From a virus, in the IMG/VR virus record IMGVR_UViG_3300024343_000100, positions 1 to 26,466 of that record: a stretch of DNA of 26,466 nucleotides, one strand, 5' to 3'. How positions within the stretch are numbered: position 1 is the first letter of the stretch; every line of letters begins with the position of its first letter. The notes beneath the pieces were generated by a model. That model was not told the origin of the DNA. It saw only the letters and a list, made by a program, of their open reading frames with translations, and searched no databases. Made by a program: the position numbers and the translations under genes. Shown here piece after piece: positions 1,213 to 25,533 of this stretch.

Positions 1213-1239
1213 TATAACGATTTTATTTCCCTCTTTTGT
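1213..1239 (-). promoter_or_regulatory. Candidate phage late promoter, site a (CAAAA-N14-CGTT)
   Basis: On the minus strand CAAAA (1238-1234) is followed after 14 bases by CGTT (1219-1216) and, 8 bases later, by the ATG at 1207. It lies directly downstream of the intrinsic terminator at 1249-1274, where a new promoter would be needed for the 147-aa gene and portal. Four other sites in the window share this layout. A translation-initiation element is the alternative reading. Confidence 0.5.
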
Positions 1240-1248
1240 GTGTGTAAA

Positions 1249-1274
1249 ACAAAAAAGGAGGCAAAAAAGCCTCC
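1249..1274 (-). terminator. Intrinsic terminator after tail tube gene
   Basis: Minus-strand stem GGAGGC / GCCTCC (1274-1269 and 1262-1257) around a six-T loop, followed by six T and then GTTTT. It is a perfect 6-bp GC-rich hairpin with a U tract, 25 bases after the tail tube stop codon. Confidence 0.85.
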
Positions 1275-1299
1275 CTTAGTGTAACGCAGTCCGAATGTG

Positions 1300-1821
1300 T
1301 TATGCAGTTGGGTCGATATTAGTTGCACCAATAGTTGATGGAGCAGCAGAACAGAAGAATGGTGGAGCAGTTTCTTGAGCAGTTAAAGTCAAGGTGAATC
1401 CACTCAAATCTCCCATAGCAGCACCTGAAACGATAGTACCTCCAGTTACTTCAGCACCGTGTTCTTTACCCATTAAAAAGAACTTTCCATTGTTGTCTTC
1501 GATTACTACTTGTGGTCTACCAGCAGCAAGAAGTTTAATCTCCTCTTGTGTAGCAGCATCTAAGTAAGTAAAGGTAACATTCAAAGTAGACTCGTAGAAA
1601 GTTGTACCATTCTCACGAGAAGAATTGATAGCAGTCTCTAAAGATGAGTTTCCTTTGATTTCGTATTTGTAAAATTCAGCAGCAGTGCCAATCGTAATCA
1701 CTCCAGCGGTAGGAGATAAAGCGGCAACATCTGTATCATAATTTGCAAAGTAGATATTCTTCAAACCTCCAACAGAAGATTTACAAGGAAGAACTCTACC
1801 TTTAGCGATAGAACAAGCCAT
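1300..1821 (-). CDS. Major tail tube protein (putative)
   Basis: 173 residues from MACSIAKGR at 1821. An in-frame ATG 54 bases upstream exists but falls in the terminator hairpin, and the 1821 start has the A-rich leader (CCTAAAAAAACTATG) typical of Bacteroidota genes. The N-terminus has GGLKNIYFANYD, the middle TTFYESTLNVTFTYLDAAT, and the C-terminus ends in a strand followed by LTAQETAPPF. This layout fits phage tail tube proteins. Location right after the major capsid gene and between two terminators suggests high, separately tuned expression. The assignment rests on sequence character and context. Confidence 0.7.
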   Translation of the reverse strand: MACSIAKGRVLPCKSSVGGLKNIYFANYDTDVAALSPTAGVITIGTAAEFYKYEIKGNSSLETAINSSRENGTTFYESTLNVTFTYLDAATQEEIKLLAAGRPQVVIEDNNGKFFLMGKEHGAEVTGGTIVSGAAMGDLSGFTLTLTAQETAPPFFCSAAPSTIGATNIDPTA

Positions 1822-1844
1822 AGTTTTTTTAGGTTTTAAGGTTA

Positions 1845-1883
1845 TTAAAAAAGGGCAGGTAGGCACTCGGCTCACCCACCCTT
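1845..1883 (-). terminator. Intrinsic (probably leaky) terminator between capsid and tube genes
   Basis: Minus-strand 10-bp stem AAGGGTGGGT / ACCTGCCCTT (two G-U pairs) with a 13-base loop, followed by a T run. It starts 21 bases after the capsid stop. Only ~24 bases separate it from the tail tube ATG, too little for an ordinary promoter, so part of the transcription probably reads through, giving more capsid than tube mRNA. Confidence 0.7.
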
Positions 1884-1904
1884 CTTATATTAATTCAATG
1901 ATGA

Positions 1905-2834
1905 TTAAGAGTAAAGAACGATGTCAGAACCGATTCCGTACTGTACACCAGCGGTAAATCTCATAATAACTCTTACATTTTCAGAGCCATCAAGGTCAGC
2001 CATATCCAACAATTTAACCAAGTTGTGGTCAGATAACAAACCAGTACCGAAGAACAAGTTAGATTTCTGAGCAGCCATCATAGTATCATCAGCAAGTCCG
2101 TTAGCAACAAAGATTTTAACACCATCGAAAGACAATGCTCCGTTGTTCCACCATTGAGTTCCTTCAGCATTAACACCATTAGCACCCAATCCAGAAGCAC
2201 CGAATCCACCTAATGCACGAACATAAGCACGAGCAACATTTTGAGATACATAGATGTAAAGGTCTTCTTTACCGTATAGAGCAGATGGAATAGCATCAAC
2301 TACTTTCCCTAACTCAGCGATAACATTAGCAGCAGTTACAGAAGTACCAACTACATCGATAACAGAAGCATCAGCAGTAGCCAAAGTAACCAATCCGTTG
2401 AACTCACCAGCGTTAGCGGTTACACCACCCCAGATGTTTTGTTCAGTTTTCTCAGCTACCAAACCAGCAGTGTGAGCGATAAGGAAATCAGAGAATGCAG
2501 GTGGCAAAGAGTCAAATGCAGAATATCCCATTTGTACTGCTTCCCAATCTGAATGGAAATCTTTCTTACAAAGTTCAAGGTTTACTTGGAACTCCTCTGG
2601 TTGAAGAATACGCTCAGTCAAAGTGATTGTAGCGGTGTCAGTAAAGTCGCAAGTAGCATCTTTAATTACATTGCTATCAGTAGCAACTTTTTTGATAACT
2701 TCTTTGAATTTTACATTTGGTTTGATGGTAATACCACCATTGTTAAGAGTTGCACCAGAAAGTAGAGCAGCAGCGATGTAATCACCAGCAAAACTTCCAG
2801 CATAACTTGAGGTAATCGATACACTTGTAGCCAT
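1905..2834 (-). CDS. Major capsid protein (HK97-fold, putative)
   Basis: 309 residues, which would form the icosahedral shell. The N-terminus is short and Ser/Ala-rich. Landmarks are LQPEEFQVNLELCKKDF (about 78-94), a central FGASGLGANG glycine-rich loop, and the C-terminal run GVKIFVANG, LLSDHN, DMADLDGSENV and FTAGVQYGIGSDIVLY, a pattern I recognise from Bacteroidota phage capsid proteins. There is no obvious N-terminal delta domain; the separate acidic protein encoded just upstream may be the scaffold. The leader has AAACCTAAAA shortly before the ATG, much like the tube gene. A terminator follows. Confidence 0.88.
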   Translation of the reverse strand: MATSVSITSSYAGSFAGDYIAAALLSGATLNNGGITIKPNVKFKEVIKKVATDSNVIKDATCDFTDTATITLTERILQPEEFQVNLELCKKDFHSDWEAVQMGYSAFDSLPPAFSDFLIAHTAGLVAEKTEQNIWGGVTANAGEFNGLVTLATADASVIDVVGTSVTAANVIAELGKVVDAIPSALYGKEDLYIYVSQNVARAYVRALGGFGASGLGANGVNAEGTQWWNNGALSFDGVKIFVANGLADDTMMAAQKSNLFFGTGLLSDHNLVKLLDMADLDGSENVRVIMRFTAGVQYGIGSDIVLYS

Positions 2835-2852
2835 TGTTTATTTGTTTTAGGT

Positions 2853-3422
2853 TTATTTTTTAATTTGTGAAATTCTTGCCATTACTAAATCCTTAGTAGA
2901 TTGTGGTCTGTTTGCTCCGAATACGATTTGTTTCTTAGCAGACTCACCTTCAGGAGAATGTTTGATTGGAGCAGCGGCAGGTTTAGAAAGTTCTTCTTTT
3001 ACCAACTCTTCCACTTCACTCATTTCTTCTTTAGGTTGTAGCATTGCTTTGATTTCTTCAATCATAGATTTCAATTCAGACAACTCTTCTTTAGTAGCAT
3101 ACATAGACTCCTCAGCCATTTCTTCGACTGGGGCTTCTTCCTCTACTTCTTCACCAGCGAGTTCTTTAATCTCTTTGATGATACCTTCTTCTTCGACTAC
3201 AAGAACCTTTCCATCTTCCAAAGCATACTCGCCTACTGGAAGAGCAATCTTGTCTTCTTCAGTTACGATGAACACCTCGAAGTCAGGAGCAAATTCCTCA
3301 GCCTCCAAAACAGTACCGTTCTCAAGTATCATTTGAGCAAGTTTGGTTTCTACAACCTCTTGACTCAACTCAATACCAAGAACGCTTTTGATTTCTTTTA
3401 GCATTTCGATTGGGTTTTTCAT
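2853..3422 (-). CDS. Putative head scaffolding protein, acidic
   Basis: 189 residues, strongly acidic (long Glu runs around 75-145). A beta-rich section with paired LENGTVLEAEEF and LEDGKVLVVEEEG hairpins is followed by a coiled coil (about 105-145) and a basic C-terminus containing NRPQSTKDLVMARI. Position immediately upstream of the major capsid gene, high acidity and the short basic C-terminal tail fit an internal scaffold. It has the CGTT-type leader (site b). A decoration protein is the alternative. Confidence 0.65.
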   Translation of the reverse strand: MKNPIEMLKEIKSVLGIELSQEVVETKLAQMILENGTVLEAEEFAPDFEVFIVTEEDKIALPVGEYALEDGKVLVVEEEGIIKEIKELAGEEVEEEAPVEEMAEESMYATKEELSELKSMIEEIKAMLQPKEEMSEVEELVKEELSKPAAAPIKHSPEGESAKKQIVFGANRPQSTKDLVMARISQIKK

Positions 3423-3430
3423 ATTAATAT

Positions 3431-3453
3431 AACGATTAGTGATTTTGATTTTG
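3431..3453 (-). promoter_or_regulatory. Candidate phage late promoter, site b (CAAAA-N14-CGTT)
   Basis: Minus strand CAAAA (3453-3449), 14 bases, CGTT (3434-3431), 8 bases, ATG at 3422. Its upstream half closely resembles site c (CAAAATCAA at the same distance in both). It would start a transcript for scaffold and major capsid. Confidence 0.5.
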
Positions 3454-3474
3454 CATTTTCAGCACCTATACTAA

Positions 3475-3822
3475 TTATATAAGTTTTGATAATCCAGATA
3501 TAATTGAATTTGCAGCGGATATTTGCTCCTTTGCTTCTTGAACTTTATTCTGCATCATTTTAATGAAATCAGAAGCGCCTAATTCTTTCGCCTTTTGCAA
3601 ACCGTTCTCTGCAAGTTTCAAAGCAACCTCAGCTTCTGACTTCCCTTTTTTAACCTTATTTTCAATCGCTATAATCTCGGATTGAGACTCGATTAAATCA
3701 AAAGATTTCTTCAAAGAAGAATTAATGTCCTCTACAAGAGCGAACTCCACTCTTTGCACCTCAGACAACTCCTCTTTTTGAATCTGAGCAATCTTGCTCA
3801 TCGCTTGTTTTTGTGTGTTCAT
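3475..3822 (-). CDS. Helical virion-module protein, paralogue of 3840-4202
   Basis: 115 residues, predicted almost wholly helical and rich in Lys, Glu and Ala. It aligns by eye with its neighbour across the whole length: MNT start, RVEFALVEDINSSL matching KVELSLISDIDKAL, and KAKELGASDFIKMMQNKVQEA matching the same region. I do not recognise the family. It lies between the jelly-roll-like protein and the scaffold, so a head-assembly or internal-head role is possible. No catalytic or membrane motif is seen. Confidence 0.7.
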   Translation of the reverse strand: MNTQKQAMSKIAQIQKEELSEVQRVEFALVEDINSSLKKSFDLIESQSEIIAIENKVKKGKSEAEVALKLAENGLQKAKELGASDFIKMMQNKVQEAKEQISAANSIISGLSKLI

Positions 3823-3839
3823 AGTTTTATATATTTATT

Positions 3840-4202
3840 TTAAACCATCATTGATTTAGCCTTAGACACAATGGAATCCATTTCTTTTTTTGATACTTCT
3901 GCTTCTGATATTCTGCCCTGAATTACCCTAACTAAATCATCAGCACCCAATTCTTTAGCTGACTCAAGTGCTTTTTTACCTAAGTTTATTGCTACTTGAT
4001 AATCATTAGAAGCGGTTTTAGCATCAAGTTCAATAGCCTGAACCAATTTCCCAAGATTTTTCTCAGAACTAATTGCTCTGTCTAACGCTTTGTCAATATC
4101 AGAAATAAGAGACAACTCCACCTTGTGAGAAGATAACTCTTGTTTATCTTTTTGTTTGCTTATTTGCGAAACCACTTGGAACGCTCTTTCTTTTGTATTC
4201 AT
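3840..4202 (-). CDS. Helical virion-module protein, paralogue of 3475-3822
   Basis: 120 residues, all-helical and charged; shares MNT..., KVELSLISDID and SAKELGADDLVRVIQG with the next gene, which marks a tandem duplication followed by strong divergence. The 17-base gap and similar AT-rich leaders (TAAACTATAAAT and TAAATATATAAAACT) suggest the leader was duplicated too. Function unknown; an oligomeric coiled-coil head or neck protein is possible. Confidence 0.7.
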   Translation of the reverse strand: MNTKERAFQVVSQISKQKDKQELSSHKVELSLISDIDKALDRAISSEKNLGKLVQAIELDAKTASNDYQVAINLGKKALESAKELGADDLVRVIQGRISEAEVSKKEMDSIVSKAKSMMV

Positions 4203-4221
4203 TTTATTTATAGTTTATGGT

Positions 4222-4365
4222 TTAACTTCTTGTTTTACCGATTCCTTGCGCCCACAGAGACCCATCACAACACTTTCTTGAGTATGTGTCCTTGTCTTTA
4301 CACAGACATCCTCTCGCACTTCCTCTGGGACTTGTTACACTTGGTGTCTGTTCTTCCTTACGCAT
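4222..4365 (-). CDS. Small Cys-rich conserved phage protein
   Basis: 47 residues, starting at MRKEEQTPSV, with RGSARGCLCKD (Cys20 and Cys22) and YSRKCCDGSLWAQGIG (Cys33, Cys34). Four cysteines and a conserved DG.LWAQGIG tail match a small family I have seen in Bacteroidota phages; function unknown. A knuckle-like metal or disulphide fold is possible. The ATG overlaps the stop of 4358-4993 by 8 bases, which supports this start over a longer upstream frame that would lie wholly within that gene. Confidence 0.65.
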   Translation of the reverse strand: MRKEEQTPSVTSPRGSARGCLCKDKDTYSRKCCDGSLWAQGIGKTRS

Positions 4366-4993
4366 AGCTTTGTGTTTTTTGAATGAAGAATATAATATCC
4401 CATATATTAGCGGTTCCACCATTAGCGGTAATCTTCCATTGACTACCATTAGCAACAAACGCATCGTCTGCATACCATTGAAATACTTCGTGAAATTGAT
4501 GTTCTATATCATTGCCCTTAGGGAACCCAATATCTTTACCAACTCTTCTATAAGGAGTTCCATTTGTCGCATCTAATTGTAACCTTAAATATGTTTGATT
4601 TGCATTAGGTGCTGAGTAATAAAAAACTACTGTACATACATAAGTATCATTTACAGAATCGGCTAATATCTTTTTTGTTGTGCCATTGTAATAATCAATA
4701 CCAATATTAGAACGAACTATGTTTGCGGAATTATTTGGTACAACTATTTCAATACCATCTAATAATTCTAATTTGTTAGATGAGGTATATAATCCGTCAT
4801 CATATCTTGCCCATCCAAGACCTGAACCAACACCACTCTGAGGATATAACTTTACCCACTCGCCACCGAACACAGTCCATACTCCAGACTCAGTAGTAAC
4901 ATACGCACCTTCCTCAATGTTATATTGATTGCGGATTGTGTCAGTATCTACATCTACTTGAACCTTATATGATGTATTGAAAACTGTACTCAT
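4358..4993 (-). CDS. Putative virion surface protein with jelly-roll-like C-terminus
   Basis: 211 residues. After a short N-terminal segment with a WTVFGGEWVKLY motif comes a beta-rich domain (about 58-211) starting GLGWARYDDGLY and containing LDGIEIVVPNNSANIV, a central FYYSAPNANQTYLRLQLDA and the end FFIQKTQ. This resembles a beta-sandwich domain seen in uncultured marine phages, likely a capsid decoration or fibre-like element. It overlaps the stop of the small basic gene upstream and lies between the protease and scaffold genes, supporting a head location. Exact role unproven. Confidence 0.65.
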   Translation of the reverse strand: MSTVFNTSYKVQVDVDTDTIRNQYNIEEGAYVTTESGVWTVFGGEWVKLYPQSGVGSGLGWARYDDGLYTSSNKLELLDGIEIVVPNNSANIVRSNIGIDYYNGTTKKILADSVNDTYVCTVVFYYSAPNANQTYLRLQLDATNGTPYRRVGKDIGFPKGNDIEHQFHEVFQWYADDAFVANGSQWKITANGGTANIWDIIFFIQKTQSYA

Positions 4994-5127
4994 CTACCTT
5001 GTCCCTTATAAAGTTTCTTATAGTTCTTACTTGTCTTTAAAACGCTTGTCTTACTCTTAGCGTGTACATTAGGTCGAGATACATCTGGTTTCTCGTAAAC
5101 CATTCCTGCGGTTTGTTTCTTAGCCAT
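4990..5127 (-). CDS. Small basic conserved phage protein
   Basis: 45 residues, very basic, ending KTSKNYKKLYKGQGR. The N-terminus is MAKKQTAGMVYEKPDVSRP. It overlaps the protease gene by 8 bases and its stop overlaps the next ATG, so its frame is tied into the head-gene operon. Similar short Lys/Arg-rich proteins occur in head modules of Bacteroidota phages. It may bind DNA or acidic proteins, but this is inference. Confidence 0.7.
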   Translation of the reverse strand: MAKKQTAGMVYEKPDVSRPNVHAKSKTSVLKTSKNYKKLYKGQGR

Positions 5128-6079
5128 CTAATTCTCCGAGTTCTTTAAGTTTGCTTTCCGCCCATCTCTTACCCGCAAGTCCTCCCCATAGTAAATACGA
5201 AATAGTACCACAAGCCTCATTATCCCCTTCTACATAATACTCCTCTGCTCTGCTTAGATAAGAATACATCCTCTTAATGGTCTCTACGCTGATAGGTTTC
5301 TTTTGTGCTAATTGTTGGGCTCGAATCTTGCCAACTTCGGTAGCACATCGGTTGTTAATCTTTTCGTTTAACTCGATACCTTTCTTAGCGTTGTTTGAAA
5401 CTGCATCTGGATAATCAGAGTAAGATTCCATCTCTAACTTCTTTCCGCCTTTTACTCTCTTGTCTCCTTTGATGATTCCACGAACCACACCAAGCATATA
5501 CTCGGCTTCTTCTTCTTCGGTTTGAGCAAGTAACTCAGACAAAGAATCTTTAGGTCTTTCTATCTTATCAGTGAAATAACCCTCAATAGAGAATCCTTTT
5601 ACTTTACCCGTTTTAACATACTCATCCCAAACCTCTTCATTGTTTACTTTTACCGCACCCATCCAAGTACCTACTGGAACTTCCATTCCGTACATACGAG
5701 ATTTATCGTGTACCTCATCTTCAACAATCCAAGACTCTACCAAAGACAACCCATTAAGAGCGTATTGATGCTCCATTGTAGAGTTGTTCTGATTACCTTT
5801 CATTAAGAACTTCTGAGCGGTTTTAAGGATAGTATCTTTTGAAAAGAATACATAATACTCATCTTCTCCGTTCCTTCTGTAAATAGGCTTATTAGGTACA
5901 AGTAAAGCACCCATTAGGATTCGTTTCTCACTTGATACCTCAGCGAGTTTTATCTCTTGAGAATTAAGTGCTATAAAGTCCTCCTCAATCGCGGGGTTCT
6001 CAACAACCGAAATCGCTTCTACTCCTGATATTTCGTTATCCTCATCTAAAATGAGTTCTATAATCTTAAAATTGCTCAT
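5120..6079 (-). CDS. Prohead protease, XkdF/S78-like, with C-terminal helical domain
   Basis: 319 residues. The N-terminal half resembles XkdF-type phage serine proteases that process the prohead: His104 in MEHQYALNG, followed by SLVESWIV, and Ser164 in KGFSIEGYF are the likely catalytic His and Ser. After an acidic linker (about 178-195), residues 217-313 form a separate helical domain (SYSDYPDAVSNNAKKG, CATEVGKIRAQQLA, LLWGGLAGKRWAESKLKEL) found attached to head proteins of many phages. The start is at a CGTT-type leader (site c). The protease gene follows the tape measure gene rather than the portal, a rearranged order. Confidence 0.82.
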   Translation of the reverse strand: MSNFKIIELILDEDNEISGVEAISVVENPAIEEDFIALNSQEIKLAEVSSEKRILMGALLVPNKPIYRRNGEDEYYVFFSKDTILKTAQKFLMKGNQNNSTMEHQYALNGLSLVESWIVEDEVHDKSRMYGMEVPVGTWMGAVKVNNEEVWDEYVKTGKVKGFSIEGYFTDKIERPKDSLSELLAQTEEEEAEYMLGVVRGIIKGDKRVKGGKKLEMESYSDYPDAVSNNAKKGIELNEKINNRCATEVGKIRAQQLAQKKPISVETIKRMYSYLSRAEEYYVEGDNEACGTISYLLWGGLAGKRWAESKLKELGELDG

Positions 6080-6087
6080 ATATACTT

Positions 6088-6110
6088 AACGATTTTTAAG
6101 GTTGATTTTG
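6088..6110 (-). promoter_or_regulatory. Candidate phage late promoter, site c (CAAAA-N14-CGTT)
   Basis: Minus strand CAAAA (6110-6106), 14 bases, CGTT (6091-6088), 8 bases, ATG at 6079. It lies between the end of the tape measure gene and the protease, at the boundary of the tail and head gene groups. Confidence 0.5.
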
Positions 6111-6113
6111 TAT

Positions 6114-7970
6114 TTATAACGATGCTCCTTTAACGATATTTCTCTCTAATGATTGTGCAGTAGATACATCGGATGCTACTACATACGCTCTCATAGGTTT
6201 AGAGTTTTGTCCAGCTATCACATCTGCTAATTGAGTAGCACTTGATTGACCTACCACATTAAACGAAGGTGGAATAGAACCAGCGGATATAGTAGGGCTT
6301 GATGGGCTCTCTACGCTACCACCAACACCAATACTTGAGGCAACCTTCTTAGACTTACCAATAGCACTACTTACCGCACTAACAATACCAGCAGCTTGTA
6401 AACCATATCCGATAAGCATTGGTATGTTCTGTGGGAATCCAATCTTAGCGGTTTGAGCAGTACCCTCAGCAATCGCAGCGGATGATTTAGCACCAGATAA
6501 ACTTGCAAGTGTTATGGTTTTCTTAGCTTCCATAAACAACTCTTTTATAGCAAGTGCTTGTTTTATTAAAAACGCAGCTTTACCAGCAGCAGTCTCAGCA
6601 CCAAATAAAGAAATAGCTTGGTCTGTTAATTGTGCTTTAGCGGTTAGTAAATCCCTATCTAATTGTATTTGTTTTTGAGTGTTGTCTTGTTGGAAGTTTA
6701 AGAGTTCGTTTTGAGCATCTACATACGCTTGAGTTCCCTCTTTGTATTGATTACGCTTATTGATTAATCTTTCTTCTTCGAGTCTTGCTTCCTCATCAAA
6801 TACAATCTTTAATTGAGTTAATCTCGCAATATCGTTTTGAATTTGTTCAGCACCGAATTGTTTTTCTTTTATTGCTCTCTCGGTTCTTCCATCAATGATA
6901 GATTGGTTCAATTCTAATTGCTCACGATTCAAAGCAAGGTCATTTGCTAATTGTTCAGACCTAAATCCTTCAATCTGTGCAAGTACCGCTTCTCTCTCTT
7001 GAGTAGCCTCTAAAAGTGCAATGTAATTAGCTTGGTTTTGGTTCTTGTTGTATTGTGCTTGAGCAGAAGCAATCTGAGCGTTTACTTGTCTAAGCATCGC
7101 AGCCTCTTGTTCATCGAGTACCGCTTTTAGGTCGTTATTAGCCTTTATTCTTTCATCAATGGTGTTTCTCTCATCATCTCTTACTTGACGAAGTTTCTCC
7201 GCTTGTCTGTCGTATTGCTCAACTAAACCTTGTTGAAGAACTCTTGCAATCTCAGCTTGTTTGTTTAATTCTACGGTGTTCTTAGCGGCATTCCAAGTAT
7301 TAGAAGCATAGTCAGCAATAGAACTCGCAGCGTTAGAGACAACATCTGATACTTTATCAAATGAGTCATCTACACCAGTAACAACATCAACAAGTTCCTT
7401 ACCTGCTTCTTTAAAATCCTCTACCGCACCTACGAAGTCAAAACTAAATACTTTTTGAATAGCACTACCCAATAATCCTGCGGCTTCTATGGCACTATTA
7501 AAGCGTTCTATGAGGTTATCTTGTATTGCCTGACCTAAGTTCTTTAAAGACTCTACTGGGTCGCTAAATATCTGTTTGAAATAACCCGTGATAGTTCCAA
7601 TGTTCCTATCTAAGAAGTTAAAGAAATCGTTAAACGCTAACGATAAAGCCTCGAAGGTTGTGTTGAAGAAATCCGCTACCTTTTGGTTCTCTTCAAATAC
7701 CTCTTTAAGTTTAGCAAACGCAGCCAACAAAAGACCAATACCAATAGCTTTTATAGCAGTTCCAATCTTCTTAATACCATTCGCAGCAGAACCAGATGAC
7801 TTCTCAATGTTCTTAATACTTGTAGCGGTATCTTTGTTTTGCTTCTTTACTTGGTCATTCAGCTTTTTGTTCTCTTCTTCAATCTTAGAAAACTCTTTCT
7901 GAAATTCATCAAGATTCTTTACCGCCTCTTGGTATTTTACTTCTATATCTACAACTACCTTTTTTGCCAT
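6114..7970 (-). CDS. Tail tape measure protein
   Basis: 618 residues. It has a charged coiled-coil N-terminus (about 10-60), a hydrophobic stretch (about 68-87, IKAIGIGLLLAAFAKL), long Gln/Glu/Ala-rich helices (about 240-440) and a hydrophobic Gly/Ala-rich C-terminal part (about 505-545). This is the usual make-up of tape measure proteins, which set tail length and pass into the host envelope. At ~0.15 nm per residue the tail would be about 90 nm, suggesting a siphovirus. The 48-aa frame before it overlaps its start by 16 bases. Confidence 0.88.
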   Translation of the reverse strand: MAKKVVVDIEVKYQEAVKNLDEFQKEFSKIEEENKKLNDQVKKQNKDTATSIKNIEKSSGSAANGIKKIGTAIKAIGIGLLLAAFAKLKEVFEENQKVADFFNTTFEALSLAFNDFFNFLDRNIGTITGYFKQIFSDPVESLKNLGQAIQDNLIERFNSAIEAAGLLGSAIQKVFSFDFVGAVEDFKEAGKELVDVVTGVDDSFDKVSDVVSNAASSIADYASNTWNAAKNTVELNKQAEIARVLQQGLVEQYDRQAEKLRQVRDDERNTIDERIKANNDLKAVLDEQEAAMLRQVNAQIASAQAQYNKNQNQANYIALLEATQEREAVLAQIEGFRSEQLANDLALNREQLELNQSIIDGRTERAIKEKQFGAEQIQNDIARLTQLKIVFDEEARLEEERLINKRNQYKEGTQAYVDAQNELLNFQQDNTQKQIQLDRDLLTAKAQLTDQAISLFGAETAAGKAAFLIKQALAIKELFMEAKKTITLASLSGAKSSAAIAEGTAQTAKIGFPQNIPMLIGYGLQAAGIVSAVSSAIGKSKKVASSIGVGGSVESPSSPTISAGSIPPSFNVVGQSSATQLADVIAGQNSKPMRAYVVASDVSTAQSLERNIVKGASL

Positions 7971-8101
7971 CTTACTTCTTTTTTAAATACATTGAATGTG
8001 TCTCTTAGTGTCTCTGGTAGGTAATACTTACCCTTTGCTATTTGTATGGTTTCTGTTTCTCCTTTAGCGTATGGGAGCAGTTCTAAGATGTTCTTTATCA
8101 T
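7955..8101 (-). CDS. Small conserved tail-module protein
   Basis: 48 residues (MIKNILELLPYAKGETET...KKEVRWQKR). Its ATG overlaps the stop of the 681-aa tail protein as ATGA and its 3' end overlaps the tape measure start by 16 bases, which strongly supports translation. No domain is recognised. The position just before the tape measure is where tail chaperones normally lie, but it is much shorter than known ones and the likely chaperone is at 12242-12975. Confidence 0.6.
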   Translation of the reverse strand: MIKNILELLPYAKGETETIQIAKGKYYLPETLRDTFNVFKKEVRWQKR

Positions 8102-10143
8102 ACTATATTGATTAATTCGATTTCGCTTTTTCCGTTCGTTAAATCGCTTGTAATTGAGTTTATCTTGTATGCTCTATCACCTACTATGAAAGTATCTTCA
8201 GGTCTATATTGGGTTAGAATCTTAATCGGTAAATAAGCAGTTACTTTAGTGATTCTCGTTTGTGAGTTAAACACCGATTCTATGTAATCAGCATAATACT
8301 CTTGAAATAAAGTGTCCTCATAAATAACACCTTCATATTCGTTTAACTCCGCTTTAAAGTTTATGTTAGAAGAATCTGTAGCCACTACCTTATCAACTGA
8401 ATTACTTGGAATAAAGTAAGTGGTTATGACATCCCTTGTAGAGCCATTAAAGATGTATATATTATTCCCCGAACTTGATACTGGATAAAACACTAATGGT
8501 AGACCTATGTATGGGCTTCCTGAGCCATCTGTGTTTATTTTATCAACCATCCAACCCCATTGAATCGTGGTTAATCCGCTTCCTATTTGATTTCTCATAC
8601 GCTCATACTTCATATGCTCAAAAGGAATACTTACGCTATATGTCTCTCCATCGTACTTAGCATCTAAGGCATATTGCTCTGTTGCCCAATCAAGATTGAA
8701 TTGTTCTTTATGATTTTGAGCAAGTAAAGTACCTAATCCTTCGTATTTAAAATCAATCTGTTTAAATAGCGTAGAAGGCACGACTGATGACTGAGTCATA
8801 TCTACATACTCTGTTATGTCAAAAGGATTTCCAGATGCATAGAAAACGCTTAGAGGCTTAACAACTATAACACCGTTGCTTTCGTAAGCAGTAAGGTTAA
8901 ACATCTTAAATACCGCAGTCAAGAAGTCTATAATCTTCATCTTTGGTATGTTGTCTGATATAACCGTAAAAGAAGATGCACTCAATGAAATATCTGTCTC
9001 TAAAGACCAATCGTTAGTTTCTACCGAAGAACCATTCTCATATCTTGTTGCTCTGTAATAGGTGTGAGTTACGGGAGCAGTTGCACTTGATATTAAAGTA
9101 AAGCTATTATCAGGCATTATTTCAAACTCCTGATAGCAATCAACAAGAATATCTGGAAGAAGTATTGTATAAGAAGTAAACCCAGTAAGAGTGCCAGTCT
9201 CAAAGTTTACAGAGCCATTTATCTTAGAACGAACTTTAAAAGATGCTGAGGTACTATCTACTACTACAAAGAGTCTATTCTTATACGCTATATTATCTAT
9301 ACCTCCTGTGTTCGTATAGTCAAATCTTGACCCTCCATTCTCTACAGTTATGTACTCAAAATCATCGAAATCTTCAAATCCTTCTATCGCTACATTTTGA
9401 TTCTGAGGTGTAGTAATTGCACCTTTCTCTCTATGTAACCACATATAAAGATTGTAGTAATTAGTTTCAGATGAATCAAAGAAGTCATCAGAGAATGTTA
9501 TTCCGTATTTCTCTTGAATAGCTAATACCAAACAATGTAACTTGATAGCGTATTTTAAAGATGTCCAAGTTCCTCCATAACCAGAACTCGCTAAGTTACC
9601 TTGAGCAATCCCAAATGATGAGTTATAAAACCATTTCTCTTGTGCGGATATAAGTGGACAAATAATAGCATCCGTAATCCCATTCTTATCAATACCACTT
9701 GATAAAGCAGTTTCAATAGTGGTAGGGTTATAGGCAATATCGTAAGCACTTAAGTCTAAAGAGTCTAATTGGTCTTCTCCAACCAAGTCTTTAAGCGTAA
9801 CTGTGTTTCCAAAGAATGTTACTTTATAAGCGAATGGTGCGTTGTCTTTTAAATCTACACTTTCGAGTTTTATCTTACCCTCTCTAAATGTTTGGTGGTT
9901 TATCTCGATTATTGCGTTTACCTTGAATCTTGCATCGAACCCACCTACAACATCAGGGTTATAATAGTGCTTGAATATCTTGTTGTTTGTAGTCGAAGCA
10001 GGTAAGTTAAACGATTGAGAATAGTCCGTGAACACCTTAGCAATGTCCTTAACATTCTGAATAGTTGAAGTTATCTGAATGGTCTCATCTTGAAACAAGT
10101 CCACTCTCTGTCCTTCGATATATAACTGAACCTCTTGCTTCAT
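8098..10143 (-). CDS. Large tail protein (distal tail / tip candidate)
   Basis: 681 residues. The N-terminus (LYIEGQRVDLFQDETIQITSTIQ, then FTDYSQSFNLPASTTNNKIF) is a hallmark I associate with a conserved Bacteroidota phage tail protein. The rest is beta-rich with many aromatics and ends in SEIELINIV. Residues about 400-440 (IPKMKIIDFLTAVFKMFNL) look like part of a hub-type domain. It sits between the 379-aa protein and the tape measure, so a distal tail, hub or tip role is likely. No peptidase motif is visible. Confidence 0.7.
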   Translation of the reverse strand: MKQEVQLYIEGQRVDLFQDETIQITSTIQNVKDIAKVFTDYSQSFNLPASTTNNKIFKHYYNPDVVGGFDARFKVNAIIEINHQTFREGKIKLESVDLKDNAPFAYKVTFFGNTVTLKDLVGEDQLDSLDLSAYDIAYNPTTIETALSSGIDKNGITDAIICPLISAQEKWFYNSSFGIAQGNLASSGYGGTWTSLKYAIKLHCLVLAIQEKYGITFSDDFFDSSETNYYNLYMWLHREKGAITTPQNQNVAIEGFEDFDDFEYITVENGGSRFDYTNTGGIDNIAYKNRLFVVVDSTSASFKVRSKINGSVNFETGTLTGFTSYTILLPDILVDCYQEFEIMPDNSFTLISSATAPVTHTYYRATRYENGSSVETNDWSLETDISLSASSFTVISDNIPKMKIIDFLTAVFKMFNLTAYESNGVIVVKPLSVFYASGNPFDITEYVDMTQSSVVPSTLFKQIDFKYEGLGTLLAQNHKEQFNLDWATEQYALDAKYDGETYSVSIPFEHMKYERMRNQIGSGLTTIQWGWMVDKINTDGSGSPYIGLPLVFYPVSSSGNNIYIFNGSTRDVITTYFIPSNSVDKVVATDSSNINFKAELNEYEGVIYEDTLFQEYYADYIESVFNSQTRITKVTAYLPIKILTQYRPEDTFIVGDRAYKINSITSDLTNGKSEIELINIV

Positions 10144-11282
10144 TATCGGATGTTGTTAATCTTATCGTATGCGTACTCGAAATCTAAAGTGTAATCAACC
10201 AACTTATCATTTACACTTGTTTTGTAAGTCAAACTATTGCTAACTACATTAAGTGGAAGCACTAACTCCTCATCGGTTAGCTTAGTCATCCAAACTTGCT
10301 CCGATAACAGAAGTTGTCTAATCACTTCGTTATATTCCTCAGAGATATAACCAGTATTCATAGTGATTCTCTCTTTTCCGTTTTTACTTAGTATCGTGTT
10401 TTGATGATTGCTTATACCATAACTAAGAGTCGATAAGTCCATAGTAGAACGCTTATACGAATCTTGTGTTGTTGTGATAGACTCTACTGATTTCTTAAAG
10501 AAGTACATATCTTGTAATGCTCCAAACTTATTCAAGAAGGTAACCTTATACGGAGTGTATTTAGGCTCACATACAGAAATGATTTTAACGATGTCTACAC
10601 CACTATCAGTAGCCACCCATAGTTCATCTACCAACCCTATATCTAAAGTGTCTAAGAACGCTTTTAAACAAGCTGTATCCTCAAGTACACCGCCAGTAGA
10701 CAAAACTCTTTCTTTAAAGTTATCCGAATTATCATTTCCACTAACACTCACATAGTCAATCTGAGCATTTGAATTAGTAGAACTTGAAATAGTTTGAGAA
10801 CGCTTAACCTCTCCGTTGTAGAAATAAGTTACCGAATTGGTAATATCCGTATCTACTGGTACTCTAACATTATTGTCATCAAGTCTGTAAATAATTCTAT
10901 TGGACATTAAAAGACCCTCGTTTAGTTGAGGATTGACTCCATCTTCAAAGTATCCGTACCCCGAGTAAGCGATGTAATCGTTATTATTGCTTGATGTTCC
11001 AGAAGTGAGCGTTAAAATAGTGTCTAATTCCACCCATACTGCCTGACTCGTGTAAGTGCCATCAAATGAAGTATCAAGATAATCCTTTACAAACTCTGAT
11101 ATTTCAAACACCACATAAGTGTCCGCACCTTTAGGGTACTTTACTAAAGTGTATTGTGGGGATGCTGGTTTGTCAGTTGAAAAAACACCTTCGTATATAT
11201 ATAGGCTTAAAGTAGCGTACGATAAATTAACATCGCTATACTTTCTATAAAACGGGCTTCGAACATTTATTTTTGTACTCAT
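10143..11282 (-). CDS. Tail structural protein
   Basis: 379 residues, beta-rich (INVRSPFYRKY at the start, KYPKGADTYVVFEISEFVKDYL about 49-70). Residues 191-214 contain ERV...GGVLEDTACL, a segment shared with the 147-aa protein near the portal. It is linked by ATGA and TAATG overlaps to the neck-like gene before it and the 681-aa protein after it. I recognise it as a conserved phage structural protein, probably part of the tail tip or baseplate-like end, without a firm family. Confidence 0.68.
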   Translation of the reverse strand: MSTKINVRSPFYRKYSDVNLSYATLSLYIYEGVFSTDKPASPQYTLVKYPKGADTYVVFEISEFVKDYLDTSFDGTYTSQAVWVELDTILTLTSGTSSNNNDYIAYSGYGYFEDGVNPQLNEGLLMSNRIIYRLDDNNVRVPVDTDITNSVTYFYNGEVKRSQTISSSTNSNAQIDYVSVSGNDNSDNFKERVLSTGGVLEDTACLKAFLDTLDIGLVDELWVATDSGVDIVKIISVCEPKYTPYKVTFLNKFGALQDMYFFKKSVESITTTQDSYKRSTMDLSTLSYGISNHQNTILSKNGKERITMNTGYISEEYNEVIRQLLLSEQVWMTKLTDEELVLPLNVVSNSLTYKTSVNDKLVDYTLDFEYAYDKINNIR

Positions 11283-11788
11283 CTTGTAAAGTCTAAAAAG
11301 TCATCTATATCTAATGCAAATCTTTCTGTAATATCTTCGGGTAATCTTAAAAACGCTTTCTCAAAAGGCTTAGTAAAAAATAAAGAAGGCTTTATACCTT
11401 TCTCGTAAACACTCTTTTGTAAAATGAATCCTATCGTTCTATAATTACCTTTCTTAAACTTTCCTTTCTCATCTCTTAGTCTAATCCCTCTTGCCTTTGC
11501 CCAATCCGCTAATGGTTGCATTGGAGGCTTCTTATTCGAGTATGAGTATATTGTGTTGTATTTCTTTTTCGTACCACTTACCCCCTTGTCCTGAAACTCT
11601 CCATAATCAGCCATATAAAACTCTAAGCTGAACGAATTAGGACTAACATTCAAATCATATCCCAAAGAGTTATAAAGGTCAGCAGATACATTCTTTCTCC
11701 CCTTAGTTAAGTTTGTCCTCGATTGCTGAATGACATACTTAGCAAAGCGGTTAAGTTCATCTTGCGTTCTCTTGAAATCAGCAGACAT
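11279..11788 (-). CDS. HK97 gp10-like neck / head-tail joining protein
   Basis: 169 residues with the typical layout of the gp10-like family: an N-terminal helix, then YGEFQDKGVSG (about 67-77, like the EFG.G element), PLADWAKARGI, and a C-terminal GFILQKSVYEKGIKPSLFFTKPFEKAF. Such proteins sit at the head-tail interface. It overlaps the next gene by 4 bases (ATGA) and the preceding tail-terminator-like gene by 11 bases. Confidence 0.7.
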   Translation of the reverse strand: MSADFKRTQDELNRFAKYVIQQSRTNLTKGRKNVSADLYNSLGYDLNVSPNSFSLEFYMADYGEFQDKGVSGTKKKYNTIYSYSNKKPPMQPLADWAKARGIRLRDEKGKFKKGNYRTIGFILQKSVYEKGIKPSLFFTKPFEKAFLRLPEDITERFALDIDDFLDFTR

Positions 11789-12245
11789 TAATATCGTTTT
11801 GAATCATTACATCGAATGTTGCAGTCCATCCAGCTAACTCGTTCTCGAACCTATCCTTAAAAGGCTCTAAGGTTACATCTCCTACCACTTGATAAAGGTC
11901 TCGGTATAATGTTCCGATTCTTAGTCTTTGAATCAACTTATTAAGAACTGCGAGTTGCGTATTGAACACATCTTGCTCGTTATTGTTGCCCACGAATCTA
12001 TCTACGGTTTCCTCTTTGCTTTGGTCTACAATATCCATCGATAAGATACTGATGTTAAACGATAGTGTATTTTCTCCGCTTGTAACTGAGTTTACTATCA
12101 AATGAGAAAGTGGAAATATACTTTGCTTGTATAAATCCACCTCAGTAATGTCTCCGAATGTTACTGTGTTTACATCCTCATCGTTTAGGAGTTGTTCCTT
12201 AATCAAATCGGTGAGTAAATAAAATCCTCTTATTCCCGTGTTCAT
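11778..12245 (-). CDS. Putative tail terminator / tail completion protein
   Basis: 155 residues with mixed alpha/beta character: an N-terminal helix (LLTDLIKEQLLND), FPLSHLIVNSVTSGENTLSFNIS strands, a central helix (QLAVLNKLIQRLR) and a final strand (LAGWTATFDVMIQND). This is the usual layout of tail terminator proteins, which cap the tail tube. Its ATG lies in the ATGA overlap with the stop of the -1 frame of the chaperone gene, consistent with coupled synthesis. Confidence 0.6.
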   Translation of the reverse strand: MNTGIRGFYLLTDLIKEQLLNDEDVNTVTFGDITEVDLYKQSIFPLSHLIVNSVTSGENTLSFNISILSMDIVDQSKEETVDRFVGNNNEQDVFNTQLAVLNKLIQRLRIGTLYRDLYQVVGDVTLEPFKDRFENELAGWTATFDVMIQNDINVC

Positions 12246-12975
12246 ATCTTACTTTTAATTTGTCTTGCTTCTATATCGTTCTTCTCTTTCAAAAATGACA
12301 ACATCATAAAACACTCGTGAGCGGTTAGTTTAGTGATATTCTCAAATCTTGTAATATCCCCTTGAGCGAGTGAGTAAATTGATTGATACCAACCCCACTT
12401 TTGTCCGAACTGAGATACTGCACTAAGCGTGTCTCCTGAGACTCCTCCAAATAGTTCATCATAGCTTGAGATAAGTCCATCCCTAAATGGTAAAAAAAAA
12501 GCACCGAACTTATAACCGCATCCATTGGCATATCCTTCATTACATCACCATCACCAGCTTCGTAGTCTGCGATGTTGTATCTCTCTCCGTATTTATCTTT
12601 GATAGGTCTGTATAGAACTGCCATTGCTCTGTGCATATTCTCCCAATCACCTAAGTAGGTATCTAAGTCAATGTATTCACCAAGACTTATCTCATCTAAG
12701 TTTGGAATGAATCCGTACTCCACACCTTTCATCTTGAACTTACGAACTAAGGAAGGTTTAGAATCAAACATCTCTGACAAGATTACGGTGATAGCGTTTA
12801 CATCACTCATCTTCATTTTCATCGTGTCTGTGAGTTTAATCCCACAAAAGATTTCAAGCATCTTGCTTTGTAGGAACTTCTCATCAGTTTCATTATCTTG
12901 TATCTTGACATACCTCTGATATTGGTCAAGAGTAATCTCAGATAATTCGCTTGGTATAATAACTTCAATCTTCAT
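12242..12975 (-). CDS. Tail assembly chaperone, -1 frameshift product (G/GT-like)
   Basis: Fusion of 161 codons from ATG 12975 with 83 codons of the -1 frame, 244 residues in all, entered at the T9 run (12500-12492). The N-terminal part begins MKIEVIIPSELSEITLDQYQ. The shifted part includes SSYDELFGGVSGD, QFGQKWGWYQSIYSLA, DITRFENITKLTAHECF and an end in KEKNDIEARQIKSKI, which reads as real protein and resembles C-terminal parts of tail chaperones. Its TGA at 12244-12242 overlaps the next gene's ATG (ATGA). In lambda-like phages such a shift makes a small amount of the long form that recruits tail tube and tape measure. The start follows the CGTT-type leader (site d); an upstream in-frame ATG lies beyond the terminator. 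Confidence 0.72.
12325..12975 (-). CDS. Tail assembly chaperone, zero-frame product
   Basis: 216 residues when the ribosome does not shift. After the T9 run the zero frame continues for 55 codons (FFYHLGMDLSQAMMNYLEE...ILQDLRISLN), also plausible protein rather than noise, so both frames may be used over about 170 bases. The N-terminal domain (MKIEVIIP, YRPIKDKYGERYNIADY) resembles Bacteroidota phage tail chaperones. It is the first virion gene after the terminator at 13007-13038. Confidence 0.65.
   Translation of the reverse strand: MKIEVIIPSELSEITLDQYQRYVKIQDNETDEKFLQSKMLEIFCGIKLTDTMKMKMSDVNAITVILSEMFDSKPSLVRKFKMKGVEYGFIPNLDEISLGEYIDLDTYLGDWENMHRAMAVLYRPIKDKYGERYNIADYEAGDGDVMKDMPMDAVISSVLFFYHLGMDLSQAMMNYLEESQETRLVQYLSSDKSGVGINQFTHSLKGILQDLRISLN
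12490..12501 (-). promoter_or_regulatory. Slippery site for programmed -1 frameshift
   Basis: Minus strand C TTT TTT TTT AC: zero-frame codons CTT TTT TTT TAC. Slipping back one base at the tandem TTT codons keeps full codon-anticodon pairing and enters a frame open to 12242. This matches an X XXY YYZ site. A homopolymer sequencing error would give a fixed -1 fusion instead, so read-level checking is useful. Confidence 0.65.
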
Positions 12976-12983
12976 AACTATAT

Positions 12984-13006
12984 AACGATATTTTAGACCT
13001 ATTTTA
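12984..13006 (-). promoter_or_regulatory. Candidate phage late promoter, site d (TAAAA-N14-CGTT)
   Basis: Minus strand TAAAA (13006-13002), 14 bases, CGTT (12987-12984), 8 bases, ATG at 12975. It begins right after the T tract of the terminator at 13007-13038, so the long tail-gene transcript most likely starts here. Confidence 0.55.
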
Positions 13007-13038
13007 AAACAAAAAAGGGACAACATCTCTGCTATCCC
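13007..13038 (-). terminator. Intrinsic terminator after small membrane gene
   Basis: Minus-strand 8-bp stem GGGATAGC / GTTGTCCC (two G-U pairs) with loop AGAGAT, followed by TTTTTTG. It separates the terminase/membrane-protein unit from the tail genes. Confidence 0.75.
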
Positions 13039-13063
13039 CTCTCTGACTAAAAATTAACCTTAA

Positions 13064-13183
13064 CTAAATTGATTGTATTGCTGAACCTAATAACATAAAT
13101 CCTATCATTACTATCATCCCTACTGCGTAAAAACTAAGCAAGTAAAAGATGTTCATTGGGTCTCTTTGTAAAAACTTTTTCAT
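13064..13183 (-). CDS. Small single-span membrane protein with own promoter and terminator
   Basis: 39 residues: MKKFLQRDPMNIFYLL, then a hydrophobic helix to about residue 36 (YAVGMIVMIGFMLLGSAI). One transmembrane helix with a basic N-terminus predicts an inner-membrane protein. A consensus Bacteroidota promoter lies 20 bases upstream of its ATG and a terminator follows 25 bases after its stop. It is thus an independently transcribed unit between terminase and tail genes, like a moron. Function unknown; immunity, exclusion or lysis roles are possible. Confidence 0.6.
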   Translation of the reverse strand: MKKFLQRDPMNIFYLLSFYAVGMIVMIGFMLLGSAIQSI

Positions 13184-13203
13184 ATCTGTCTTGTTTATTG
13201 ATA

Positions 13204-13234
13204 CAAATATACTAATCATTTTTAATCTACCAAA
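13204..13234 (-). promoter_or_regulatory. Bacteroidota housekeeping-type promoter for small membrane gene
   Basis: Minus strand TTTG (13234-13231), 19-base spacer, TATATTTG (13211-13204), an exact match to the TTTG / TAnnTTTG pattern. The expected start site is near 13197-13200, giving a leader of ~15 bases to ATG 13183. It lies between the terminase stop and the 39-aa gene. Confidence 0.75.
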
Positions 13235-13240
13235 CTTTTT

Positions 13241-14380
13241 TTATCTGATTGCGTATGTTCCGTAATTTGGTTTGCTTAGTACATTGTAAGTCGCATACCT
13301 AAACGCATCTATTAAGTGGTCGTTTCCATCTTGTGGAATGTTGGTTAGTTTACCACTTCTGTCTTCTATCCATTTGTAGTTTCTCATCTCTTGGACAAAG
13401 TTATCCCCTATGACATTTAGCTTATGTCTTTTGAGTACATCGATTCCTGCGTGAACAGAGTTAGCACCTTTCTTAGTTGGTCTGATAGGTATTCCCATTC
13501 TTCTGAGTTCTTCTATGATTTCAGGTCTCGCTGAGTCCGCATAGATTATACCTTTCAACTCTACTTCTTTAAGATACTTCGCTATATCATAACCAGTCAT
13601 CCCAGTTCTATATAACATCTCTTTTGCGTATAGACTATTCTCTTTACGATACACCTCAACATAAGTAGTAGGGTCGTTATATCCGAAGTCTAATCCAGCA
13701 GATAAGAACTCCGCATCCTCTGGAACTTCTGATTCTTGGAACTGAAAGATAGTTGCTTTAGATATTCCCCTTTGACCAAGTCCGTAAATCTGCCAATAAG
13801 TCTCATCGGTTTCTTTAAGTCTTTCTATCTCTTCTACGATAGCCGAATCTAAGAATGGATTGTCTTTATAGGTGGTGATATAAAAGTCGCAGTCTTCTCT
13901 TGTTTGAACCTTGTCATATATCCAAGAGTATTCATCCGATGGGTTAAAGTCTAAGATGATTCTACCCGATGTTCTAAATACTAATTGTTGCCAATCCTCG
14001 TATGTTAGTTCGTTAGCTTCGTTAATGAATAGCAAATCTCTTTTCCTACCTCTGATTTTCTGAGGTTGGTCTAACGATATAAACTCGATGAGGTTGTCGT
14101 TTAAGATGTACTCGTTAGCACTCTTAGAATGGTTGTCTTCTGAGTAGAGTTCATACTTCCTTAGAATATCAAAGAAATCCCTCATAACAGTTGCACGAAC
14201 CGATGGGAATGTCTTTCTAACTATTGTGATGGTTTCTCCAGTATGGTTAATTGAGTACCTGAAGATAATCCACATTAATATGTTGTAGGTCTTTCCAGAA
14301 CGAGTACCACCTTGCTCGGCAATAATCTTCTTATCAGATATATCTAAATGCTCAAAGACAACATTAGTCTTTAGTCTCAT
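13241..14380 (-). CDS. terL: Terminase large subunit
   Basis: 379 residues, the DNA-packaging motor and nuclease. The ATPase has Walker A QGGTRSGKT (23-31) and Walker B LLFINE with catalytic Glu121, followed by a TTYKDNPF segment (169-176). The RNase H-like nuclease has Asp231 in AGLDFGYNDPT, Asp282 in YADSARPEI and the C-terminal DGNDHLIDAFRY (Asp354 or Asp358). Length is near the short end of the family, but all motifs are present. It overlaps the small subunit gene by 17 bases. The usual next gene, the portal, is instead more than 12 kb away. Confidence 0.95.
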   Translation of the reverse strand: MRLKTNVVFEHLDISDKKIIAEQGGTRSGKTYNILMWIIFRYSINHTGETITIVRKTFPSVRATVMRDFFDILRKYELYSEDNHSKSANEYILNDNLIEFISLDQPQKIRGRKRDLLFINEANELTYEDWQQLVFRTSGRIILDFNPSDEYSWIYDKVQTREDCDFYITTYKDNPFLDSAIVEEIERLKETDETYWQIYGLGQRGISKATIFQFQESEVPEDAEFLSAGLDFGYNDPTTYVEVYRKENSLYAKEMLYRTGMTGYDIAKYLKEVELKGIIYADSARPEIIEELRRMGIPIRPTKKGANSVHAGIDVLKRHKLNVIGDNFVQEMRNYKWIEDRSGKLTNIPQDGNDHLIDAFRYATYNVLSKPNYGTYAIR

Positions 14381-14702
14381 TCTTTATAATTTCGATTTCA
14401 AATAACTTCTTTCCTTCTGAACCAGTTATCTCTTGTCTTTCTACATATCCTCGTTTCTTACCTTTTGTCTTTAGGTAGAATATGAGTTCAGGTGTTGCTC
14501 CCTTGTTAATGTTCTCCATTAGTTTAGATTCCGCTAAGTCAAGCAAAGCCTCCTCACACGCTACTACCTCTTGTCTGAAATCATCATCATCTTCTTTCCA
14601 ATTATAGAAAGTCTGTCTGCTTATGTTCGCAGCCTCACAACTCTTTGAGATATTGCAGTTGTTTAACTTAAATGCTTTGAGAAATGTATCTTTATCTTTC
14701 AT
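14364..14702 (-). CDS. terS: Terminase small subunit
   Basis: 112 residues. The N-terminal helix-turn-helix (NCNISKSCEAANISRQTFYNW, about 15-35) would recognise the packaging site. A helical oligomerisation region follows, and the C-terminus has LIFYLKTKGKKRGY and then RQEITG, which is typical of small terminase subunits. The gene starts 49 bases after a terminator, and I see no TAnnTTTG box in between; the start of its mRNA is therefore unclear. Confidence 0.88.
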   Translation of the reverse strand: MKDKDTFLKAFKLNNCNISKSCEAANISRQTFYNWKEDDDDFRQEVVACEEALLDLAESKLMENINKGATPELIFYLKTKGKKRGYVERQEITGSEGKKLFEIEIIKNETKD

Positions 14703-14750
14703 TATTTAGAATGTTTCTTTTTTAGTGTCTGTCTGTCAAAATTGTAAATC

Positions 14751-14782
14751 AAAAAAAAGGTAGAGAACGATTAAACTCTACC
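14751..14782 (-). terminator. Intrinsic terminator before terminase genes
   Basis: Minus strand stem GGTAGAG / CTCTACC (14782-14776 and 14765-14759) with a 10-base loop, followed by eight T. It ends the operon that runs from 18566 down to 14850, but also lies between candidate promoter site e and terS. Confidence 0.85.
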
Positions 14783-14822
14783 CTTCGGCTAAATACTTAG
14801 GCAAGTAAATAAAGAACATCAT
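14778..14822 (-). CDS. Possible 14-codon leader peptide before terminase terminator
   Basis: ATG ATG at 14822 opens a frame MMFFIYLPKYLAEG whose TAG (14780-14778) falls inside the 5' arm of the terminator hairpin. It follows candidate promoter site e. A ribosome stopping there would block the hairpin. Nothing but position supports translation, so this is tentative. Confidence 0.25.
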   Translation of the reverse strand: MMFFIYLPKYLAEG

Positions 14823-14835
14823 CGTTTTTATATAT

Positions 14836-14858
14836 AACGCTAAAAATCACTACTTTTC
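14836..14858 (-). promoter_or_regulatory. Candidate phage late promoter, site e (GAAAA-N14-CGTT)
   Basis: Minus strand GAAAA (14858-14854), 14 bases, CGTT (14839-14836), then ATATATAA. The two elements keep the spacing of the other four sites, but the nearest ATG is 13 bases away. The upstream element lies in the last codons of the NUMOD1-like gene. It could drive the terminase genes if the terminator is read through. Confidence 0.4.
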
Positions 14859-20103: not shown

Positions 20104-20278
20104 CCCCACAATTACAAGTTAAAGAGTTCAACCATAATTCTCTCTCGTAGCATCCGCAAGATTCGTAACCAAGTTTCCTTGCTACCCAAAATGCAACCTC
20201 ATACGCATTACCAAAAGTTACCAGTTCGGTTATTGCGTGAACCATCGTTCCAAGTTTAATATAACATCCTATTTTCAT
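20093..20278 (-). CDS. Small CGC-motif protein 2
   Basis: 61 residues with YEVAFWVARKLGYESCGC (Cys41, Cys43), then ERELWLNSL and a terminal CNCGDDN. The CGC..R..WLN pattern is common in small phage proteins of unknown role. Coupled by ATGA to the sigma-like gene. Confidence 0.65.
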   Translation of the reverse strand: MKIGCYIKLGTMVHAITELVTFGNAYEVAFWVARKLGYESCGCYERELWLNSLTCNCGDDN

Positions 20279-24782: not shown

Positions 24783-24794
24783 AAATCGTTAAAC

Positions 24795-25511: not shown

Positions 25512-25533
25512 TGTATTCTTATTAAGGTCTTAA

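Follow-up and report, generated by a model that had tools for sequence, protein, structure and literature searches.

The DNA analysed here, referred to as the window throughout, measures 26,466 bases and is a fragment of the viral record of an uncultured flavobacterial phage; its main genes all lie on the minus strand. We recognised the genes for the large terminase (PF04466, 5e-23), the prohead protease (PF14550, 1.5e-16; gene 5120-6079) and the portal (PHROG 33693, 4e-56) in the window, and the gene at 1905-2834 is, as judged solely by its position, the probable major capsid gene. Four minus-strand sites, named a to d, carry AAAA, exactly 14 bases and CGTT, followed after 8 nt by the ATG of a gene. 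Site a occupies 1216-1237 (AAAA 1237-1234, CGTT 1219-1216) ahead of the ATG at 1207 of gene 764-1207; site b occupies 3431-3452 (AAAA 3452-3449, CGTT 3434-3431) ahead of the ATG at 3422 of gene 2853-3422; site c occupies 6088-6109 (AAAA 6109-6106, CGTT 6091-6088) ahead of the ATG at 6079 of the prohead protease gene; and site d occupies 12984-13005 (AAAA 13005-13002, CGTT 12987-12984) ahead of the ATG at 12975 of gene 12325-12975. The probable major capsid gene comes next after the gene behind b, and the gene behind d stands at the head of the tail/neck gene block. Directly upstream of a and d lie minus-strand intrinsic terminators, at 1254-1277 (fold -15.7 kcal/mol, z -5.4) and 13014-13041 (-16.4 kcal/mol and z -5.0, with T6 after the hairpin), respectively. 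Given that a hairpin and a T-run precede both sites so closely, transcripts of the downstream genes should begin at these points. A preliminary description of this DNA had already placed the four sites, together with a fifth named e, and its coordinates and sequences for all five were correct, as were the four ATGs 8 nt after CGTT, the additional sequence common to b and c (CAAAATCAA) and the hairpins before a and d.

The minus strand of the window contains AAAA-N14-CGTT five times (sites a-e) and the plus strand not at all, with 0.74 occurrences expected per shuffled minus strand. The full pattern AAAA-N14-CGTT-N8-ATG occurs four times on the minus strand (sites a-d), where 0.009 are expected; for both expectations the minus strand was shuffled 1500 times at first order, and no shuffle contained the full pattern more than once. 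Among all the spacer combinations tested, the pair (14,8) alone yielded more than one match. We also scored the window with a matrix built from 50 sites of relatives, a training set that left out near-copies of the window sites. Sites a-d took ranks 1-4, with d first (26.2), a second (19.8) and b and c at 17.7 each, and the best score per shuffled window averaged 8.0 with a maximum of 16.9 in 100 shuffles.

The preliminary description had grouped all five sites into one family. This grouping holds for a-d, the top four by matrix score, but not for candidate promoter e (14836-14857, minus strand; AAAA 14857-14854, CGTT 14839-14836), which lies before the terminase genes, has no ATG at the 8-nt distance and scores 7.1, a background value exceeded by two chance matches on the plus strand. 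Because of this score we treat a-d as a four-member family with e as a doubtful fifth, and e was downgraded from an equal member to a possible one. Its position is supported by two relatives in which homologous promoters precede the small terminase gene: in L166 a strong promoter lies at the end of a homologue of the NUMOD-domain gene, whose end e adjoins in the window, and in L165 a promoter immediately precedes the same terminase leader. In the window, e is separated from that leader by a terminator-like hairpin (14755-14786, minus strand; -13.5 kcal/mol, z -3.2, then T8), placed ahead of the small terminase gene, and a stretch with the last codons of a gene that is intact in L008. Site e may be a promoter that was cut off from its gene by rearrangement.

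We then turned to related phages, defined as IMG/VR contigs with homologous genes and counted by distinct upstream regions. For the four homologous genes, CGTT-N8-ATG was present in 46 of 198 upstream regions, distributed over the homologues of the genes behind a (10/40), b (7/33), c (8/54) and d (21/71). It preceded the small terminase in 2 of 35 upstream regions and was found in none of the 699 upstream regions of 27 other genes. An aligned profile of 52 sites, chosen by CGTTATA with an ATG at +8, shows AAAA, conserved to 87-96% at each position, 14 nt upstream, then a spacer without fixed sequence, CGTTATATAnnT and ATGAA. As read from this alignment, the motif is longer than first reported and takes the form CAAAAT-N13-CGTTATATAnnT-ATGAA. 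The same promoter architecture is found in the cultured Persicivirga/Nonlabens phage P12024S (genus Inhavirus), whose capsid protein is related (33% identity). Its plus strand carries seven AAAAC-N16/17-CGTT-N7/8-ATG sites, six of them with N8 and 0.017 expected, before gp01, gp05, gp08, gp35, gp41, gp44 and gp45. It is scarcely credible that a-d are operators or other protein-binding sites, or matches by chance: the window does hold just four to five copies, but the numbers found in the window and in P12024S far exceed those expected, and both the orientation and the start-codon register are fixed. A chance origin of the motif was rejected on the basis of the shuffles and the relatives.

The exact 8 nt to the ATG in four genes would also suit a ribosome-recruiting signal on leadered mRNAs that come from undetected upstream promoters, and a translation signal with fixed spacing was the alternative offered in the preliminary description. 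The hosts lack Shine-Dalgarno sequences, and in Flavobacterium johnsoniae initiation is helped by adenine at -6 and -3 and most mRNAs are leadered (PMC6847099). However, the constant distance to the ATG expected of a ribosome-binding or Kozak-like signal was not seen in the relatives. Of the 144 CGTTATA sites that have a gene start no more than 60 nt away, 63 carry AAAA at offset 14, and every other offset accounted for at most 16. In five relatives (L046, L065, L068, L173 and L249) the block is found 20-21 nt from the ATG of the d-gene homologue, and in L165 (53 nt), L166 (35 nt) and others it stands 35-53 nt from the small terminase; in many relatives the internal spacing between A4 and CGTT is constant, with the ATG at distances of 18-53 nt. 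This independent movement of the block disfavours a translation signal and supports the reading of a-d as promoters. Moreover, in 26 strict displaced sites the dinucleotide TA at the would-be T-1/A+1 was kept in 17, with no ATG there, and TA at the surrounding positions 8-19 occurred 0-7 times, which fits a -1/+1 initiator rather than a translation signal. The placement of a and d directly behind terminators, the absence of the motif before the 27 other genes, the difference between CGTT and a Kozak-like pattern, and the fact that motif variants follow the DNA-reading helix of a sigma factor (see below) all speak against a translation signal as well, and we consider it very improbable.

The candidate for the protein that reads a-d is encoded by the gene at 20275-20751 (minus strand), an ECF-type sigma factor gene of 158 aa identified by family profile, fold and annotated relatives. 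The preliminary description had missed this likely cause of the motif, even though the gene lies within the same window. The window protein alone gave no Pfam match at E<0.01 and matched PHROG 1740 (RNA polymerase sigma factor) at E 0.016, while among 21 homologues 5 matched Sigma-70 region 2 (PF04542; best 7.7e-5) and 14 matched PHROG 1740 (best 4e-7). A tblastn search of the phage collection with the window protein alone returned no match; a profile was needed, and it reached the P12024S homologue (E 4e-9). This homologue, gp33, is found at the same locus and is annotated in its record as 'containing Sigma-70 region 2'. Of 16 related records of at least 18 kb, 14 contain the gene, P12024S among them; a search for it in a genome collection of 84,980 species returned no relative. 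The AlphaFold2 model (pLDDT 86.8, pTM 0.46) consists of two helical domains joined by a low-confidence linker (residues 86-94), and such a predicted arrangement of sigma2 and sigma4 with a short linker is that of ECF (group 4) factors. Foldseek matched the model with probability 1.00 to the PDB ECF sigma factors SigE, AlgU and RpoE. The overall TM-scores of these matches were 0.36-0.47, low values that reflect the uncertain orientation of the two domains in the model; region 4 alone, compared with region 4 of E. coli RpoE, gave a TM-score of 0.76. Matches were also obtained to several phage proteins that carry an ECF sigma factor annotation.

Relatives that lack CGTT carry CGATATA, CTATATA or AGTTATA at the same position, and more distant clades carry GGTTAAC, CATTA or TATTAATA at the promoter position, with the -10 labels of the two most distant classes (TATT and CATT) assigned by eye. 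These classes go with different versions of one sigma helix, namely LF[LI]DLKRKE with CGTT, GLYVDLIRKK with CGAT, GIYV[SA]FLRSN with CTAT and HLHYDL with AGTT. The codons of this -10-reading helix (residues 57-78) lie at 20518-20583 on the minus strand of the window. In pairs of sigma proteins that are 40-60% identical overall, the identity of residues 63-74 was 0.74 within a class versus 0.38 between classes, and that of residues 69-80 was 0.62 versus 0.34; the same pairs showed a lesser class gap at residues 21-44 and none in the region 4 windows. Across the compared sequences, promoter and DNA-reading helix thus appear to change together, and most of the protein does not change with them. 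The preliminary description had named the loss of the motif in relatives that keep the genes as an observation that would speak against it. Such relatives do occur, but in them the sigma factor has changed and another motif stands at the same place.

At the level of single positions, residue 70 ranks first among 159 columns for G at -11 and residue 66 second to third among 159 columns for A at -10. They correspond to N92 and N88 of SigH, respectively, according to a profile alignment to M. tuberculosis SigE and our own helix alignment to SigH, and in the SigH crystal structure N92 and N88 contact -11 and -10 (PMC6411747). A one-residue code with Gly66 for A at -10 and Asp/Asn70 for G at -11 was considered and rejected, as it is broken by L027, which has Gly66 with a CGTT promoter, and by L284, which has Asn70 with T at -11. 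On the tree, the classes are mostly single clades, with 8 changes for 8 classes, and single-residue covariation was not significant, with two supported independent contrasts for -11 and one for -10. Given these exceptions and the few supported contrasts, we claim the coupling at the level of the region only.

The Bacteroidota housekeeping -7 consensus TAnnTTTG (PMC6847099) is found on the minus strand at 23731, 23041, 22932, 18578 and 13211, plus 13403 in terminase coding DNA. It is absent at all of a-e, in agreement with the preliminary description, which had located host-type promoters only elsewhere. Two host-type elements with the sequence TATATTTG (minus strand) lie at 22925-22932, upstream of the gene block that leads to the sigma gene, and at 23724-23731, upstream of gene 23436-23702. 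A scan of the window for E. coli-type promoters was uninformative (31 matches against a shuffled mean of 43.6). The same phages have the Bacteroidota promoter for early genes and lack it at the late sites.

Taking these lines together, we propose, with a probability of roughly 0.85, that a-d are late promoters read by the phage ECF-type sigma factor on the host core RNA polymerase, with transcription starting at or near the ATG. The sequences themselves show the motif, which is conserved and keeps its form independently of the ATG, as well as the sigma fold and the covariation; from these we infer binding, timing and the exact start as follows. Early genes, the sigma gene block included, would be transcribed by the host holoenzyme from TAnnTTTG promoters. 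The sigma factor (20275-20751) would then accumulate, direct the host core to a-d by reading the CAAAAT element with domain 4 and CGTT with domain 2, and so switch on the late (virion) genes. Bacterial ECF sigma factors with GTT -10 elements exist, and binding by the phage protein is a prediction, so that a-d could in principle be served by a sigma factor of the host, ECF or other, or depend on a phage activator, with the sigma-like phage protein serving another role. We judge this improbable, since the promoter class follows the -10 helix of the phage protein and not most of its remainder, the sigma gene occurs in nearly every long related record, and the sites are confined to late genes.

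With the phage sigma factor as reader, the start point can be predicted. The -10 element of the SigH open complex reads G-11 T-10 T-9 (PMC6411747), and GTT at -11 to -9 would put +1 on the ninth base after CGTT, which is the A of the ATG. For phages 7-11 and phiEco32, transcription is reported to start 6-9 bp away from the element; the same distance from CGTT would leave a leader of 0-3 nt, which is still nearly leaderless. Given that the -10 element is fixed 8 nt from the ATG, transcription would thus begin on, or within about 3 nt of, its A. The near-leaderless mRNAs anticipated in the preliminary description are consistent with this register and with the conserved T-1/A+1 of the displaced sites, and the mRNAs from a-d would on this basis be leaderless or nearly so. 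Real promoters with a start several bases up- or downstream, giving leadered mRNAs or mRNAs that begin inside the gene, are a less likely prospect, though one to be reckoned with: start-site choice varies among ECF holoenzymes, and the start sites of the two phages just mentioned span 6-9 bp, but that range leaves at most 3 nt of leader, and TA is conserved at the predicted -1/+1 in the displaced sites. For comparison, leaders of more than 10 nt are found on 87% of those F. johnsoniae transcripts for which a promoter is probable (PMC6847099).

Phage-encoded late sigma factors are an already known kind of regulator, with phiEco32 and 7-11 as examples. In Salmonella phage 7-11, SaPh711_gp47 acts with the host core polymerase at bipartite late promoters of the form GTAAtg-(16)-aCTA before virion genes, and early genes use the host sigma factor (PMC8948821). 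The host phylum and the elements differ from those described here, a sequence match is obtained only via a broad phage sigma profile, and the 7-11 promoters are not known to have a start-codon register. The phiEco32 protein gp36 is likewise a phage sigma factor, for middle and late genes, but it lacks region 4 and uses the one-element promoter tAATGTAtA, whereas the window has -35-like and -10 elements and a sigma factor with a region 4 fold. M. tuberculosis SigH and other bacterial ECF sigma factors share the two-domain fold, the GTT -10 element at -11 to -9 and a rigid spacer (PMC6411747), and a further likeness is that the residues at the N88 and N92 positions vary with the -10 element; the window factor differs in being phage-encoded, in having an A-rich -35 instead of GGAAC and in its proposed role of driving virion genes. 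CGTT at a-d and in most relatives agrees with the ECF -10 type CGTC/GTT. The ECF -35 GGAAC with its 16-17 bp spacer is not found, as the window has CAAAAT at 13-14 bp from CGTT and the distance from its A4 to the -10 is about 4 bp shorter than that of an ECF -35. P12024S differs from the window in its -35 AAAAC with a spacer of 16-17 and its -10 continuing as AATA; the AAAAC stands in the register of an ECF -35, yet is not GGAAC. A search of the open-access literature returned nothing on point for late promoters of flavobacterial phages, and the host group, the start-codon-locked architecture and the co-diversified sigma/promoter pairs are new as far as that literature shows.

Our analysis provides, from sequence alone, a proposed transcription programme for widespread uncultured aquatic phages, with the host sigma factor acting early and a phage ECF-type sigma factor acting late. 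The sigma/promoter pairs of the relatives form a natural series, with several apparent switches of -10 specificity, that may serve for tests of -10 recognition by ECF factors and as a source of orthogonal expression parts. If transcription starts on the ATG, the late genes would be translated from leaderless mRNAs, which raises the question of how initiation is made efficient. In a broader version, to which we give slightly better than even odds, an entire lineage of flavobacterial phages would have start-codon-locked late promoters and, for the most part, truly leaderless late mRNAs, and its sigma factors and -10 elements would have co-diversified into at least seven specificities via the positions equivalent to N88 and N92. 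If true, this would amount to a natural code for sigma specificity and would give the phages a way to translate late genes that needs no leader, in a phylum that lacks Shine-Dalgarno sequences.

The terminase leader of the window (14695-14880) looks rearranged. Downstream of site e, the possible fifth promoter upstream of the terminase genes (14836-14857, minus strand), lies AAAAACGATGATGTTCTTTA, which is identical to the 3' end of a gene that is intact in the related phage locus L008 and is followed by a terminator-like hairpin. At the related loci L165 and L166, a promoter is found immediately upstream of the terminase leader. Elsewhere in the window, two adjacent small ORFs of similar appearance occupy positions 3475-4202, with homologues at just two loci and one locus among the relatives. 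The upstream end (23900-25966) carries an apparent peptidase gene and small membrane-protein-like ORFs; no strong late site was found at these genes, which may be transcribed from a promoter beyond the fragment.

A distinct late-promoter form, approximately AACAA-N17-TATTAATA, was seen at loci L312-L315 and L325-L328 (records G011, G013, G028 and G029), where it precedes homologous late genes without a fixed ATG register; the sigma factors of these phages carry Ser66/Gln70. A further form, TAACACTT-N13-ACATTA, with a -35 element similar to the classical ECF AACTT, occurs at L318-L321 and L324 (records G015, G016 and G024), whose sigma helix is highly divergent.

The promoter of L027 is CGTT and its sigma helix is of the CGTT type apart from Gly66, an exception setting residue 66 apart from the remainder of the helix. 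The sigma factors of L174 and L180 are placed within the CGTT types, with an almost identical N-terminal part, and combine an altered helix (HLHYDL) with AGTT promoters. This joint change of sigma factor and promoter would constitute a natural specificity switch.
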